64,000 bases of DNA from Clostridia bacterium (GTDB lineage: Bacteria > Bacillota > Clostridia > UBA1212). Shown here piece after piece: positions 5,213-59,771 of this stretch. Positions within the stretch are counted from its first letter, which is position 1, and each line of letters starts with the position of its first letter. The stretch is taken from positions 62,001-126,000 of the forward strand of contig JAFTXP010000003.1 in the NCBI GenBank assembly GCA_017461545.1, given 5' to 3'. A program made the translations under genes and the position numbers. The notes beneath the pieces were generated by a model, which did no database searches, was not told where the DNA came from, and was given only the letters and a program-made list of their open reading frames with translations.

Positions 5213-5806
5213 TCAGAATTCGTATGAACCGATAAGTTCTCCATTAATATCAAAATATCTGAAAATAACTTTTTCTACAGCAGCGCATTCTTTTCTGATG
5301 GAATTTGCACTGGCTGTAAAGATGTCTTTTGAATTTTCAATTTGTGCATCCATTGCTTCTTTGGCATTATCTGCAGTTTCTACTAAGTAATTGTAGTTGT
5401 AAACAAGATTGTTTCCTTCAGCTTCTATGCTGACATTAAATACTGAAGAACTTTGTTTGCTCACTAAATCTTTCGCACTGTCTACATATTCCTGTACAGT
5501 CATACCGGATGTCTCAGTAGGTGTTTCTGTCTCGGGGGCATCTGTCTCAGGAGCTTCTGTTTCCGGAGCATCTGTCTCAGGAGCTTCTGTTTCCGGGGCA
5601 TCTGTCTCGGGAGCATCTGTCTCGGGAGCGTCTGTCTCAGGAGCGTCTGTTTCTTCCGGCTTTTCTGAATTTTTAAGGGCTTCCTCAAGTTTTTCTGTTG
5701 CCTCTTTAAGTTCGTCTATCTTTTTTGATGTCTCTGAATCTTCTCCGCATCCGAAAAGTGTAAATACCATTACGAATGACAATACTATCATTAATACTTT
5801 TTTCAT
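5213..5806 (-). CDS. Lipoprotein with ETDAP-type repeats
   Basis: A 197-residue secreted lipoprotein of unknown function. Residues 1-20 form a signal peptide ending in the lipobox LFGC, so the mature protein starts at Cys20. A short charged coiled-coil (28-50) leads into about nine five-residue repeats (ETDAP, ETEAP, ETETP), an acidic, proline-rich spacer that probably lifts the C-terminal ~95-residue domain away from the membrane. That domain is a compact alpha/beta unit with no motif I recognise. GGAGG lies seven bases before the ATG. The 15-bp DNA repeat encoding ETDAP could change copy number by slippage. Confidence 0.75.
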   Translation of the reverse strand: MKKVLMIVLSFVMVFTLFGCGEDSETSKKIDELKEATEKLEEALKNSEKPEETDAPETDAPETDAPETDAPETEAPETDAPETEAPETDAPETETPTETSGMTVQEYVDSAKDLVSKQSSSVFNVSIEAEGNNLVYNYNYLVETADNAKEAMDAQIENSKDIFTASANSIRKECAAVEKVIFRYFDINGELIGSYEF

Positions 5807-8415: not shown

Positions 8416-8472
8416 ATCCCGCTGGAAAAAACCAAAATCCTAAAGGATTTTTAATAATTTTTCCGGCGGGAT
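8416..8472. terminator. Terminator built on a dispersed palindromic repeat
   Basis: ATCCCGCTGGAAAAA (8416-8430) pairs with TTTTTCCGGCGGGAT (8458-8472) with one wobble. The loop carries a second stem, AAAATCC/GGATTTT. The inner part closely resembles the hairpin at 27511-27593 and the array after it. It lies between convergent genes. Confidence 0.7.
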
Positions 8473-23373: not shown

Positions 23374-23720
23374 GATTTTTAATTGCTGAAAATATTGAAA
23401 AGCATACAGTGCGGCGAAAAAGTTATTTTTACCGACGAAGGAGGTATGCATAGATTTATGCGGTATGCTGTATCTTTCGCCTTTTTATTTCATTGTTAGT
23501 TTTTAATTGCTAAAGATATTTAAAAACCATATGGTGCGGCGAAAAAGTTATTTTTACCGACGAAGGAGGAAAACATAGATTTAGGCGGTATCTTTTGCCT
23601 TTTTATTACATCGTTAGGTTTTAATTGCTAAATATATTGAAACGCATATGGTGCGGCGAAAAAGTTATTTTTACCGACGAAGGAGGTAAGCCATAACTTT
23701 AAGCCGCACCATATGCGTTC
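23374..23720 (+). repeat. Three tandem ~120-bp structured repeats
   Basis: Three copies share an almost invariant 34-base core at 23411-23444, 23536-23569 and 23653-23686, beginning GCGGCGAAAAAGTTATTTTT and ending CCGACGAAGGAGG. Copy spacing is 125 and 117 bp, and each copy starts with TTTTAATTGCT. In copies 1 and 2 the core's GGCGAAA can pair with TTTCGCC or TTTTGCC about 70 bases later, followed by TTTTTAT, as in a terminator. Copy 3 is bounded by a 17-bp perfect inverted repeat (23641-23657 and 23703-23719). The pattern suggests structured RNA. I do not recognise the family. Confidence 0.75.
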
Positions 23721-25954: not shown

Positions 25955-27514
25955 ATGCCGGAGCTAATAAAAAATTATGTTAAAACAAGCAGACTTCTTA
26001 AAACCGAAGTTTTGAGAAGTGTTTTTGATTCCGATTATACTATTCCGGAGGGGATGCCGGAAATTAAGCAAGTGCTTGCAATTGATACAGAAGTGTTTGT
26101 CGAAAAGACGACTGCGGAAAATGACAGAGTAACAGCAGAGATATTGATTGAATACACCGTTTTGTACATGCCGAGCGGAGAAGATGTTTCCGTAAAGAGT
26201 GTAACATTTAAAAATCAACAGACCTTTTTGATAAATGCGACCGGAATTGAAGATGAGTGCAGATGCGTCATTAAGTGCTGTGCGGAACAGACTGAGATAA
26301 CAAATGTGAACGGCAGAAGACTGTCGGTTAGAAGCGTTGTAAAATGCTCTCCTCACATTGAAAATATTTCGGAGCTTGCGATTCCGTCGGATATAGCAGG
26401 AATTGATGACATCCAGGTGCAGGAGGATATATGTCCGATGAATGTCACTGTGGAGAACCTCATCGATGTGCTTGATATCAATGAAAATATTGAACTTCCG
26501 GTTGGCAAAGATCCTTTTTACAGAATAATCAAGAGCAATGCGTCAGTCAGCGATGTTACTTTTAATGTTGCATCAAACGAACTGACCGTCAAAGGCAATT
26601 TGAATGTCTGTACTCTCTACGAGTCTGACGGTGTGACAAAAAATTTGCAGATTATTGAAAATGAAATTCCTTTCAGCGAGGTAATATTTGTAGAAAATGA
26701 CAATGGCACCCTTGACTGGAATGTGGATTATTCGCTCACATCCTTCAATGCCGAGGCATCAGAGGACAGCGACGGAGAAAAGCGTATTCTCAATGTGACT
26801 GCTGCAATAAAATTTGATGTGACTTCTTCCGAGAATGTTTCGGTAAATATGCTCTCGGATGCTTATTCTCTATCGTGCGGTTTTGACCTTCAGAGAAAGA
26901 AGATTGACGTTTATACAAAGTGCGGCGAAGTTTCTTCACAGTTTGTTCTGAAGAATGCCGAATCGGTTCCCGAGGGGCTTCCTGCAATATCCGAAATAGT
27001 AAATCTGAGCGGTCAGATCGGACAGATGGACGTAAGTGCAGAAGACGGCGGAGCTGTTATCGAAGGTGTTGTAATATGCAATGTTTTGTATTTGTCAAAA
27101 GACGAATCAAACCCTGTCGCATCGTTTGCTGTACAAATACCGTTTACTCAAAGAATTGACCGACGTGACATGACTCCTGAAACCATTGTAAACCTAAGCT
27201 TAAACGTGAACCACACATCATACAGCTTGCTTTCTCCGACAGAGACCGAGCTGAGAATAGCGCTTTCTGCACGCGGTGAAACTCTTAAATCACAGTCGGT
27301 GAATATGATTTACGATGTTTCCCCTGTCACAGAACTCGACCCTACCCGCAGAAACCAAGCATCTATTCTTATCTACATAGTACAGCCGGGTGACACAATG
27401 TGGAAAATCGCAAAACGCTACAATGCTCCTATCGAAATTCTTAAATCAATCAATGATATTGAAAACGCAGATTTGATTATGCCGGGACAGAAATTGTTAA
27501 TACCTAAAAACTGA
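25955..27514 (+). CDS. sipL: SipL-like spore morphogenesis protein (SPOCS/DUF3794 plus LysM)
   Basis: A 519-residue protein that in Clostridia bridges the coat basement layer (SpoIVA) to the forespore surface, a job done by SpoVID in Bacillus. Residues ~25-460 contain repeated SPOCS/DUF3794 units (note the recurring PEGMPEI, PVGKDPFYRI and PEGLPAISEI edges). Residues ~470-519 are a LysM domain (YIVQPGDTMWKIAKRY...GQKLLIP). The order and length match known SipL. AAGGAGG lies before the ATG, and the sigma-E-like promoter agrees with mother-cell expression. Confidence 0.9.
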   Translation: MPELIKNYVKTSRLLKTEVLRSVFDSDYTIPEGMPEIKQVLAIDTEVFVEKTTAENDRVTAEILIEYTVLYMPSGEDVSVKSVTFKNQQTFLINATGIEDECRCVIKCCAEQTEITNVNGRRLSVRSVVKCSPHIENISELAIPSDIAGIDDIQVQEDICPMNVTVENLIDVLDINENIELPVGKDPFYRIIKSNASVSDVTFNVASNELTVKGNLNVCTLYESDGVTKNLQIIENEIPFSEVIFVENDNGTLDWNVDYSLTSFNAEASEDSDGEKRILNVTAAIKFDVTSSENVSVNMLSDAYSLSCGFDLQRKKIDVYTKCGEVSSQFVLKNAESVPEGLPAISEIVNLSGQIGQMDVSAEDGGAVIEGVVICNVLYLSKDESNPVASFAVQIPFTQRIDRRDMTPETIVNLSLNVNHTSYSLLSPTETELRIALSARGETLKSQSVNMIYDVSPVTELDPTRRNQASILIYIVQPGDTMWKIAKRYNAPIEILKSINDIENADLIMPGQKLLIPKN

Positions 27515-27593
27515 ACGCAAAGACTCCCTCGGAAAAAATGGCCAAAATTCTAACGAATTTTTAAATTTTTTCCGAGGGAGTCTCTGCGTTCAG
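27511..27593 (+). terminator. Long hairpin terminator of sipL
   Basis: A 28-bp arm (27511-27538) pairs with 27566-27593 with one mismatch. It starts inside the stop codon. The loop has a second stem, AAATTC/GAATTT. Its inner part is the same palindrome as at 8416-8472, and it seeds the tandem array that follows. Confidence 0.75.
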
Positions 27594-27960
27594 TTCGAAG
27601 GAGTAGTGGAGAAATGTCCAAAATCCTAATGGATTTTTAAATTCTTTCCGAGTGAGTCTCTGCGTTCAGTTCGAAGGAGTAGCGGAGAAATGGCCAGAAT
27701 CCTAACGAATTTTTAAATTTTTTCCGAGGGAGTCTCTGCGTTCAGTTCGAAGGAGTAGCGGAGAAATGTCCAAAATCCTAATGGATTTTTAAATTCTTTC
27801 CGAGTGAGTCTCTGCGTTCAGTTCGAAGGAGTAGCGGAGAAATGTCCAAAATCCTAATGGATTTTTAAATTTTTTCCGAGGGAGTCTCTGCGTTCAGTTC
27901 GAAGGAGTAGCGGAGAAATGGCCAAAATCCTAACGAATTTTTAAAATTTTTCACAGGGGG
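27581..27960. repeat. 76-bp tandem repeat array (five units)
   Basis: The junction TCTCTGCG recurs at 27581, 27657, 27733, 27809 and 27885, exactly 76 bp apart. Units carry a central stem (AAAATCC/GGATTTT in the better copies) and come in two versions: GTCC...GAGTGAG and GGCC...GAGGGAG. The last unit decays into ACAGGGGG. No coding frame runs through. The array follows sipL and seems to be duplication of its terminator hairpin. Confidence 0.9.
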
Positions 27961-27994
27961 TTTTGGTTTCAGTGAGGGTTGGCAGCCTTGTAAT

Positions 27995-28106
27995 GTGGCG
28001 TAACATATATAAAAATGGCGAAATTGGACAATTTCTGTTGAGGCACATTGAATTTAGACTATGGAGGCAGACTTGCAAATGGCGTAACATATATAAAAAA
28101 TGGCGA
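27995..28106. repeat. Direct repeat pair in the gap before the pyrophosphatase-like gene
   Basis: TGGCGTAACATATATAAAAA-TGGCGA occurs at 27995-28021 and 28080-28106, 85 bp apart. The rest of 27961-28237 shows no convincing gene. Confidence 0.6.
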
Positions 28107-28237
28107 AAACGGATATTTTTGCTGCGATGCTTTAGATTTCATTTTGATTTCTGTGTAAGAAGAAAAAATTCACTTCACATACCGTATTGCTTGCGGTATA
28201 GTAACTATGAAAAATGACAAAGACAAAAGGCGAATGC

Positions 28238-28541
28238 ATGTTGAACGGTTCACTTGTAAATGTAATTATTGATCGTCCACTCGGAAGTTACCATCCCGAA
28301 CACCCTGACCTATACTACCCTGTCAATTACGGTTATATCGAGGGAACACTCACTGCGGACGGCGAAGAGGAGGACGCATATATTCTCGGCGTTGAGAAAC
28401 CGATTAGTGAATTTGTCGGCAGAGTGATTGCGGTAATACATAGACAGGATGACGTAGAGCAAAAATGGGTTGTTGCACCTGACGGCATTGTTTTACAATA
28501 GAAGAAATTCGTCAAAAGGTCATTTTCAGGAACAATATTTT
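28238..28541 (+). pseudogene. Inorganic-pyrophosphatase-like gene with two frameshifts
   Basis: The readable part (28238-28501, 87 residues) matches small clostridial pyrophosphatase-like proteins: IDRPLGSYHPEHPDLYYPVNYGYIEG and VIHRQDDVEQKWVVAPDG regions. The frame then ends at TAG (28499-28501). The expected continuation is present in other frames: EEIRQKV at 28501-28521 in the next frame and FQEQYF at 28524-28541 in the third. One missing T in the run near 28490-28494 and one missing base near 28521 would restore it. The ATG at 28238 gives the usual N terminus. It is probably inactive, or else an assembly error. Confidence 0.72.
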
Positions 28542-28598
28542 CAATCAAAAATCAGTCTGATTATAATAATTTTGAATAAAGGCACGGAGGAGATTACC

Positions 28599-29144
28599 AT
28601 GAAAATAATGATTGCATCGGATATACACGGATCGGCAGAGTATTGCAGACAGCTTATTGAAGCATACAAAAGAGAGGGCGCTGAGAAACTTGTTCTTTTA
28701 GGGGATATACTTTATCACGGGCCGAGAAATGATTTGCCGGAAGGTTATGCACCGAAGAAAGTGATATCGATGCTTAACGGTATAAAACAGGAGATATTGT
28801 GTGTGCGAGGAAACTGCGACACTGAGGTTGACCAGATGGTGCTCGAATTTCCGGTGCTTGCGGAATATGCGATTATGTATCACGAAAGCCGCATGTTATT
28901 TTTGACTCACGGACACAACTTAAACGAGAAAAATCCTCCGATGTTAAAGAAAGGCGATGTTTTGTTTAACGGACATACGCATGTTCCGTGCGTCAGAGAA
29001 CACGAAGAGTATACATATATAAATCCAGGTTCGGTTTCGATACCGAAAGAGAATTCACCGCACAGCTATATTGTGATGACAGACGGATTGATCGAATGGA
29101 AAGACCTTGAGGGAAATGTGTATAACAGCTACAGGCTCAGTTGA
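28599..29144 (+). CDS. yfcE: YfcE-type metallophosphoesterase
   Basis: A 181-residue phosphodiesterase of the YfcE/MJ0936 family that hydrolyses phosphodiester substrates with two metal ions. The motifs are in order: SDIHG (about 6-10), GDILYHGPR (about 37), RGNCD (about 71), THGH (about 107) and NGHTHVP (about 128), then NPGSVSIP. GGAGG lies eight bases before the ATG at 28599. The frame is open further upstream through the decayed pyrophosphatase-like sequence, but that is not part of the protein. Confidence 0.9.
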   Translation: MKIMIASDIHGSAEYCRQLIEAYKREGAEKLVLLGDILYHGPRNDLPEGYAPKKVISMLNGIKQEILCVRGNCDTEVDQMVLEFPVLAEYAIMYHESRMLFLTHGHNLNEKNPPMLKKGDVLFNGHTHVPCVREHEEYTYINPGSVSIPKENSPHSYIVMTDGLIEWKDLEGNVYNSYRLS

Positions 29145-41818: not shown

Positions 41819-41949
41819 GTAAAAAACTCGAAATTCGATAGAATTTCGAGCTCAATTAGAATCTTCGAAATAACAAAAAGCTATGGTGTAAAAAAACTCG
41901 AAATTCGATAGAATTTCGCTCGTTTTTTTACACCATAGCTTTTTGTTAT
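41819..41949. repeat. Nested inverted repeats downstream of dapF
   Basis: Two copies of a palindrome CGAAATTC-GATA-GAATTTCG lie at 41829-41848 and 41899-41918, each preceded by GTAAAAAA. The second sits in the loop of a 28-bp perfect inverted repeat (41870-41897 with 41922-41949) that overlaps the dapF stop. It probably terminates dapF, but the duplicated palindrome is unusual. Confidence 0.8.
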
Positions 41950-49230: not shown

Positions 49231-49776
49231 TTATCTTGTCATGTTTGTAACTGTGTTGTTATTTTCTTGTTCAGGGAGTAAATGACTGGCATTATGCTGA
49301 TCATTTTCACCGGAAATGAAGTCGTTAGAAACTTCTCCGCTGCCTCTTGTAACATCACCTACGGCATCACCGACACCTCTTGTAACATCACCTACGGCAT
49401 CACCGGCACCTCTTGTAACATCACCTACAGCATCGCCGACACCTCTTGCGGCATCACCTACAGCATCACCGGCGCCTCTTGTAACATCGCCTACGGCATC
49501 GCCGACACCTCTTGCAGTATCACCTACGGCATCACCGGCATCATCTGCAGCGTCTCCTAAATCATCACTGATTCTATCAGTAGTGTCAGGATTGTTATTG
49601 TCAGTAACCGTAGGATTATCTGTCTGCAGATTGCCTGTTGCAGTCGGGCTGCCGGTGGCATTGTTATCGTCGGGCGAGTTTTTTACTTTTCCGTCGTTCC
49701 CACCGCACGCGGCAAATGTCAGAAGCATAAAACATAAAGCTGATAAAACGGCACTTCGTTTAATCCATTTGCTCAT
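49231..49776 (-). CDS. Lipoprotein with 11-residue GDAVGDVTRGA repeats
   Basis: A 181-residue lipoprotein of unknown function. The signal peptide ends at lipobox TFAAC (Cys about 24). A Thr/Asn/Asp-rich linker leads to about seven repeats of G-D-A-V-G-D-V-T-R-G-A with A/V and D variants (about 75-145), an amphipathic pattern. The 33-bp DNA repeat could expand or contract. The ATG at 49776 is preferred (GGAGG at good spacing) over 49782. A GTGCGA/TCGCAC stem lies in the leader. Confidence 0.75.
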   Translation of the reverse strand: MSKWIKRSAVLSALCFMLLTFAACGGNDGKVKNSPDDNNATGSPTATGNLQTDNPTVTDNNNPDTTDRISDDLGDAADDAGDAVGDTARGVGDAVGDVTRGAGDAVGDAARGVGDAVGDVTRGAGDAVGDVTRGVGDAVGDVTRGSGEVSNDFISGENDQHNASHLLPEQENNNTVTNMTR

Positions 49777-58915: not shown

Positions 58916-59602
58916 ATGCCCTTGTTTAAGGAGCTGTTAAAATTGTCTGTAAACGGAAATTCAACGATTTATTCCTCCCAGGGAATGGCTTTTCCGAAGC
59001 CTCTTTCTGCTGAAGAGGAAAATTATTATGTGGAGCGTTATTCACAGGGAGATGAGAGTGCAAAAGATATATTGGTTGAGAGGAACCTGCGGTTGGTTGC
59101 ACACATTGCAAAAAAATATATTTCCCCGACTGCAAACGGCGATGATTTGATTTCAATAGGAACAATAGGCTTGATAAAGGCCGTCGGTTCGTTTAAAGCC
59201 GATAAGGGGATAAAGCTCGGTACGTATGCCGTCCGATGTATCGAAAACGAAATTCTCATGTATATGAGATCCGGCAAAAAGTACCAAAGCGAGGTTTCAC
59301 TTCACGAACCCGTAGGAACAGACAAAGAGGGCAACGAAATATTGCTTGAAGACGTACTGAGTCTTGACGATGCGGAGATGCTCGATGAAATTGATGCAAA
59401 CTTCAAATCGGAATTGCTTTTGAAATGTGTAGAAAAATATTTAACATCGAGGGAGCGGCAAATAATAAAACTGCGATACGGTCTGGTGGGAGGAAACGAG
59501 TTGACACAGCGAGAGGTAGGTAAACTGCTCGGAATCAGCAGATCGTATGTTTCCCGAATAGAAAAAAAGGCTTTGGAGAAGTTGGCAAAGGCGATGCAAT
59601 AG
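58916..59602 (+). CDS. sigK: Sporulation sigma factor SigK, uninterrupted
   Basis: A ~228-residue sigma factor for late mother-cell genes. Region 2 (DDLISIGTIGLIKAV) and region 4 (ELTQREVGKLLGISRSYVSRIEKKAL) are complete, and the hallmark FPKPLSAEEE follows a short N-terminal extension. The ATG at 58916 gives a pro-sequence-like start MPLFKELLKLSV, comparable to the removed leader of pro-sigma-K. However, its ribosome site is poor, while a TTG at 58943 has AAGGAG at good spacing and would give a protein without a pro-sequence. No skin-like element interrupts the gene. Confidence 0.88.
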   Translation: MPLFKELLKLSVNGNSTIYSSQGMAFPKPLSAEEENYYVERYSQGDESAKDILVERNLRLVAHIAKKYISPTANGDDLISIGTIGLIKAVGSFKADKGIKLGTYAVRCIENEILMYMRSGKKYQSEVSLHEPVGTDKEGNEILLEDVLSLDDAEMLDEIDANFKSELLLKCVEKYLTSRERQIIKLRYGLVGGNELTQREVGKLLGISRSYVSRIEKKALEKLAKAMQ

Positions 59603-59660
59603 GCAAAAAGAACGGCGTAAAAAATATGGGAAAATATTTTTTACGCCGTTCTTTTTGCCT
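59601..59660 (+). terminator. 27-bp perfect terminator hairpin of sigK
   Basis: The arm AGGCAAAAAGAACGGCGTAA... (59601-59627) overlaps the stop codon and pairs exactly with 59634-59660 around GGGAAA. Confidence 0.85.
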
Positions 59661-59771
59661 ATTTCGGGAGAATATCGGAGATATGGAGAAAATATTCTTT
59701 ACGCCGTTCTTTTTGCCTATTTCGGGAGGATATCGGATATGGAGAAAATTTTTACACCGTTCTTTTTGCCT
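59641..59771. repeat. Direct repeats of the terminator right arm
   Basis: TACGCCGTTCTTTTTGCCTA-TTTCGGGAG-type units start near 59642, 59699 and (as TACACCG...) 59753, spaced 57 and 54 bp: two full units plus a partial. Each could pair with the single left arm at 59601-59627. From 59772 to 59984 I see no further feature. Confidence 0.82.

Follow-up and report, generated by a model that had tools for sequence, protein, structure and literature searches.

The window, a stretch of 64,000 nucleotides from an uncultured member of the Clostridia, carries a sipL gene whose last codon and stop codon (TGA, 27512-27514) both lie within the stem of a long hairpin, and this hairpin heads a tandem array that continues downstream of the gene (Table 1). 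The names sipL, sigK-like and dapF are backed by profile matches; eno, pyruvate kinase, ftsW-like, htpG-like, rlmH-like, cobW-like and spoIID, where they are used here, are presumed identities judged from the look of the translations or the DNA.

Table 1. Position of the sipL array and of related features in the window (MFE in kcal/mol)
Feature	Position	Strand	Basis
sipL gene, SPOCS domains and C-terminal LysM	25955..27514	+	ORF list; Pfam SipL PF12673 E 1.8e-31, LysM PF01476 E 5.9e-14
Head hairpin, left arm L, present once only	27509..27539	+	palindrome scan, fold
Head hairpin, tip (core): GGC, 7-bp stem, UAAC loop, AA	27540..27564	+	
Head hairpin, right arm R	27565..27595	+	palindrome scan, fold
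Unit 2, S-core-R, no L	27596..27671	+	MFE -16.3
Unit 3, S-core-R, C.A mismatch in core stem	27672..27747	+	MFE -12.1
Unit 4, S-core-R	27748..27823	+	MFE -16.8
Unit 5, S-core-R, hybrid of both versions	27824..27899	+	MFE -18.7
Unit 6, S-core-decayed R, C.A mismatch in core stem	27900..27975	+	MFE -14.9
Single shorter hairpin of the sipL core type, 14 nt after a stop	8416..8472	+	
Array of the same form, head 23641-23719, period about 117	23380..23719	-	TRF, palindrome scan
Single family hairpin overlapping the dapF stop	41870..41949	-	DapF TIGR00652 E 7.3e-90
Head and one-armed units at the sigK-like stop, period 58	59598..59771	+	SigK subfamily NF004471 E 3e-89

The head hairpin spans 27509-27595 (87 nt). 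Its overlap with the sipL stop and its single mismatch are as the original prediction had them, and the 30 pairs measured come close to the 28 bp that it gave for the stem. TRF delimits the repeat to 27536-27952, with a period of 76, 5.5 copies, 92% matches and no indels, and the cores start at 27543, 27619, 27695, 27771, 27847 and 27923; the exact 76-bp period that had been claimed is confirmed by these five steps, which separate six cores where five units had been counted. The left arm L is confined to the first unit, a feature that had been overlooked, and each of the five later 76-nt units consists of a 24-nt purine-rich spacer (S), the core or tip, and the right arm R. The whole 471-nt region folds at -167 kcal/mol (z -7.65, equalled by none of 100 shuffles), with a minimum free energy of -54.1 kcal/mol for the head as opposed to -12.1 to -18.7 kcal/mol for units 2-6 taken alone. 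The proposed alternation between two versions is roughly right, in that units 2 and 4 represent one version and unit 3 the other, but it breaks down at the hybrid unit 5 and at unit 6, whose R has decayed. Similarly, by eye the centre stems keep their full pairing in four of the six units, as had been proposed for all, but not in units 3 and 6. The suggestion that the array grew from a hairpin at the 3' end of sipL is supported by the congener, in which the same site holds a single hairpin, followed at most by what is left of a decayed second unit. On the 3' side of the array, 27976-28120 holds two decayed copies of a segment ATGGCGTAACATATATAAAAA-TGGCGAAA...TTTC, which look like remnants of further tip-like units.

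Extent, position and covariation of the hairpin family

Matches to the core outside the sipL array were found by BLAST in the window's genome on contig C2, at the end of C16, at the start of C19 and at position 8432 of the window. A palindrome scan for hairpins of at least 60 nt identified 12 in this genome (450 kb scanned) and 13 in its one available congener (G001; 383 kb scanned), and none in shuffles; with the samples extended to 850 kb and 783 kb, the counts are 18 and 20 respectively (n=38). No long hairpin was found in 148 kb of another genus of the same family, in 250 kb from other families of the order or in the surroundings of sipL or LysM genes from named Bacillota (162 kb). In the DNA sampled, the hairpin family was seen in only one genus of uncultured Clostridia and is carried by two genomes, of which the window's is a 69% complete draft in 27 contigs. 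A third genus of the family (G002) has four long hairpins in 182 kb, three with one arm sequence in common, and these look like a different, REP-like kind. The common arm, GCACCAGGGGGACAGAC, occurs at different loci (L206, L210 and L142) of a genome that has Y1 transposases, and the hairpins that carry it are probably a REP-like family.

Altogether, 62 different long hairpins were collected from the window's genome and the congener. Some of these loci were retrieved with the tip model R1, which enriches the set for that tip, and a few dissimilar hairpins (L139, L178, L119 and several small ones) were retained in the counts. Family hairpins with an abutting gene have a median stem of 28 bp. A stop codon lies within -20 to +8 nt of the foot on exactly one side in 42 of these 62 non-redundant hairpins, on both sides in 2 and on neither in 18, and in 21 of the 62 it begins at -1 to +8, that is, within the foot of the stem. 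For comparison, the same DNA has 206 simple terminators among 2,198 ends of long open frames, with a median distance from stop to stem of 30 nt and only two at 0 or less. The tip also has a direction: scored by a rule of our own making, it agrees with the direction of the gene in 33 cases, against 6 of disagreement and 3 left undecided (p 1.4e-5). Given that the tip is directional while the rest of the hairpin is symmetric, this points to an action in RNA.

The arm sequences vary by locus, and the tips fall into a few types. One tip of 19 nt has nine exact copies in the congener, which sit in arms that differ by locus (two share one array and one is poorly paired), and is absent from the 30 other genomes of the order that were searched, the window's own among them. 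It is also missing from viral_contigs, and a phage origin was rejected on this ground. A covariance model built from nine hairpins of one tip type has 52 matches in the congener, several of them counted on both strands, and 7 in the window's genome; one weak match in G003 (E 0.003, inside an open frame) was dropped, and a further 55 genomes had none. In the alignment of the nine hairpins, both partners vary in 23 of 32 pairs, and 95.8% of cells are paired, as against 36-58% when the partner is slid. Between orthologues, compensation was seen in 5 of 6 pairs that had changed at the sigK-type gene and, at the cobW-type gene, in 10 of 11; these are the two of five orthologous sites that align without gaps. 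Such covariation can also stem from palindrome correction rather than from selection. A search of the window and ten loci against Rfam returned tRNAs only at the gathering score, and nothing below threshold but lookalikes among long hairpins, for instance miRNA precursors; a known RNA family was rejected, there being no other match.

One-armed arrays, their turnover and the spacer motif

Extra copies of an arm accompany 17 of the 38 long hairpins and, read head-first, the repeated arm is R in all 17 (C2a was left out of the count, its extra matches being the neighbouring array). The order is invariably L-core-R followed by [S-core-R]n. At a cut-off of 72%, four of the arrays have one extra match of the other kind, which may come from a neighbouring hairpin in the spoIID-upstream array and at L129 16688 and from A-rich arms in L133 and L104. 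Where the head sits on a stop codon, the array runs away from the gene without exception: this holds for all ten such arrays, namely those at sipL, at the sigK-type and pyruvate-kinase-type genes of both species, at the eno-type gene and at L133, L134, L179 and L107. The eno-type array, at the end of its gene, has a period of about 79 and runs off both contig ends; the spoIID-upstream array, on the minus strand, is the longest and has ten internal units of about 70, of which eight have mismatched core stems by eye. In both, the first unit is a full hairpin and the later units are without L. In three arrays (L129 1-346, L129 16440-16769 and window 23380-23719), the head abuts a TTGACA-type promoter rather than a stop and has another tip type, GGTTTACT...AGTAAAA. 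Other tandem repeats of the window, at 49343-49568 and 5525-5653 with periods of 33 and 15/30, probably lie in coding sequence.

Four sites lend themselves to comparison between the two species, one of them being sipL, with its array in one species and a single hairpin in the other. At the sigK-type site both have arrays, and these are related. At the pyruvate-kinase-type site both again have arrays, here with unrelated cores and arms, and upstream of spoIID (L018 4660-5392, L115 11363-11540) both have unrelated arrays that run opposite to the neighbouring genes. Given these unrelated arrays at orthologous sites, arrays either form repeatedly there or are quickly rewritten.

Two further ideas about the units were set aside. 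A short peptide encoded in them (ATGGCCAAAATC...TAA) was rejected for two reasons: first, the start codon is not kept elsewhere; second, not every period (76, 79, 70 and 58) is divisible by 3. A spacer acting as a ribosome-binding site was rejected since only one array (L107) runs into a real gene start.

With the array headed by 23641-23719 added by hand, 18 arrays were available for analysis of the spacer. The motif TAGCGG, with at most one mismatch, lies 8-11 nt after the head in 10 of the 18, whereas the best 6-mer over 200 shuffles reaches 8. This search was limited to 26 nt after the head and to position, and was designed after the motif had been seen by eye, though it was maximised over all k-mers; under five settings, the number of shuffles out of 200 that reached the observed value was 0, 0, 2, 1 and 0. 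When k-mers were searched without restriction over the 45 nt after the heads, nothing rose above shuffles. In the sipL array, the motif reads TAGTGG in the first spacer and TAGCGG in all others. A common spacer motif is not predicted by plain slippage, and TAGCGG is the best lead towards an enzyme-driven process.

Relation to known hairpins and repeats

Uptake-sequence terminators of Neisseria and Haemophilus are terminator hairpins with a repeated motif, but there the motif is formed by the arms, whereas here it is the tip. Nearest in kind are the SPRITE and BOX elements of streptococci. SPRITE is likewise a hairpin family confined to a genus or species; it occurs at the 3' ends of genes, has a longer stem than ordinary terminators do, and consists of an 18-bp duplex of conserved sequence followed by a U-rich tract (PMC3049150). 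In the present family, by contrast, stems measure about 28 bp, the arms vary from one locus to another, a T run, where there is one, falls within the stem, and there are arrays; judged by description, these hairpins are not SPRITE elements. BOX elements are also scattered hairpin repeats whose tandem inner modules vary in number, with boxA and boxC flanking boxB modules of conserved sequence (PMC3049150). Here, one full hairpin stands at one end and the repeated unit holds one arm, so that the order boxA-boxB(n)-boxC was found in none of the 17 arrays, a judgement made on order. REPs are likewise extragenic palindromes, some of them within 15 nt of a stop (PMC12306157), but the palindrome sequence of a REP or REPIN is common across loci, whereas here the tips are common and the arms are not. 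The one pair with shared arms, L248 and L249 of the congener, is separated by 1.6 kb; the arms are nearly identical, both hairpins follow a frame of about 490 codons, and the pair is probably a duplicated gene together with its hairpin. Finally, template-switch homogenisation of inverted repeats is an established way to keep arms identical while both change (PMC8604942); on its own, it gives neither one-armed tandem arrays nor a common gene-oriented tip. In the open-access literature, no description of locus-specific arms combined with shared tips and one-armed arrays was found with search terms that may miss one.

Role of the hairpin and origin of the arrays

A T run of at least 4 lies in or just after the outer right arm of 31 of 42 family hairpins, compared with 28% of control stretches, and a run of at least 5 in 20 of 42, compared with 13%. 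The heads at sipL and eno, both with clear arrays, have no such run, and it is at these two genes that a terminator role is weakest for that reason. Across the outer right arm of the sipL head and the following 8 nt the longest T run is 2, and its stem is not followed by the U-tract that, placed at once after a GC-rich stem, characterises an intrinsic terminator.

Taking these observations together, the most probable explanation, at about 0.5, is that the head is a lineage-specific RNA hairpin of gene 3' ends, usually terminator-like, and that the array is a by-product of slippage, probably re-copied from the tip. Family hairpins would consist of a long near-perfect stem, placed at or just after the stop and free to change its sequence, and a strand-oriented tip composed of a 5' GG or GC, an inner stem, often a UNAC loop, and a 3' AA. 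In RNA, the head hairpin would most likely end or protect the transcript: members with a T run in the outer right arm could act as intrinsic terminators, the sipL hairpin would have lost its run, and stabilisation of the mRNA by the first sipL hairpin, as originally proposed, is possible. We infer from the same anatomy how the arrays could arise. During replication, once a strand has copied L-core-R together with 10-25 nt of spacer, it may slip back, re-prime at the exposed tip and copy core-R-spacer again; since re-copying would start at the tip, every extra unit would be without L. The tip would be the sole single-stranded part of the extruded hairpin and thus the priming site, and in several arrays a few bases at the end of the spacer do match the tip at its base, as GAGAAATGGCC and GAAAAAATGGCC do in sipL. 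Template switching could keep L and R matched, and the arrays would grow, shrink and be replaced faster than the flanking genes diverge. That internal units decay and fold weakly (-12 to -19 against -54) is consistent with a by-product. Nevertheless, the missing T runs at sipL and eno and the common spacer motif go against this explanation, as do the 18 of the 62 hairpins that are without a nearby stop, the spoIID-upstream array that opposes its neighbours, and the 6 of the 39 decided tips that oppose the direction of the gene.

Across this family of gene-end hairpins, structure, placement on the stop codon and tip persist although almost the whole stem sequence is replaced, and palindromes have given rise to one-armed tandem repeats time and again, which makes these sites a natural test bed for palindrome-seeded arrays. 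They would serve equally for the effect of a stop-containing hairpin on translation and termination where polymerase outruns the ribosome. Bacillota are classed as having runaway transcription (PMC13323073). Given this, a hairpin on the stop codon could act before the ribosome arrives.

A more far-reaching proposal, tentative and rather unlikely, is that these hairpins represent a distinct class of 3'-end RNA element, with the stop codon in the base of a 28-bp stem and a tip that a putative dedicated factor reads; tips would be copied between loci while arms remain private, and amplification of core and R would be primed at the tip and guided by TAGCGG. Next in order, and unlikely too, is selection on the array itself, which could for instance be a 3' region that slows translation or binds protein, its effect being tuned by the number of units. 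The recurrence of arrays with different sequence at orthologous sites would fit, as would the stop inside the stem, given that REPs lying no more than 15 nt from a stop reportedly stall ribosomes (PMC12306157). However, a fragile palindrome would also be expected to give recurrence, many hairpins of the family stand alone, and the internal units decay (two of six in sipL and most in the spoIID-upstream array).

It is also doubtful, and ranked just after selection, that a mobile-element enzyme, such as a Y1/HUH (REP-associated) transposase reading the hairpin and a short guide like TAGCGG, makes the hairpins or arrays. This would account for a common spacer motif near the hairpin foot and for a 19-nt tip copied exactly nine times in the congener, mostly inside unrelated arms, and Y1 transposases are present in the congener (two) and in G002. 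Against this, arms that differ at nearly every locus imply that the whole hairpin does not move as a unit, a search of seven genomes found no Y1 gene in that of the window (69% complete), and the four Y1 loci are without TAGCGG and have hairpins that look different. Nor does position support a Y1-transposase element: in the loci seen, these genes are not near family hairpins.

The original prediction also offered the units as stacked terminators, each backing up the stop of sipL read-through. Although the hairpin sits at a gene end and every unit partly keeps the A-rich/T-rich inner stem, this is very improbable and was discarded for units 2-6, which have lost L and fold weakly; a consensus scan restricted to short loops found no terminator-like site on either strand of 27000-28700, and no T run trails the stem of the head. 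Least probable of all is an assembly artefact: the array is real, since its units differ from one another and the same architecture appears in the independently assembled congener, even though the genome is a draft in which unit number may be wrong. Of the contig ends examined, 4 of 20 fall in such arrays (one, C11, was judged with the help of another array), and it is for this reason that unit numbers may be wrong. These arrays explain several contig breaks in the drafts of this genus. The eno-type array (L017 4631-4990, L016 1-410) ends contig C16 and begins contig C19, which suggests that the two contigs are neighbours and that this array is longer than assembled.
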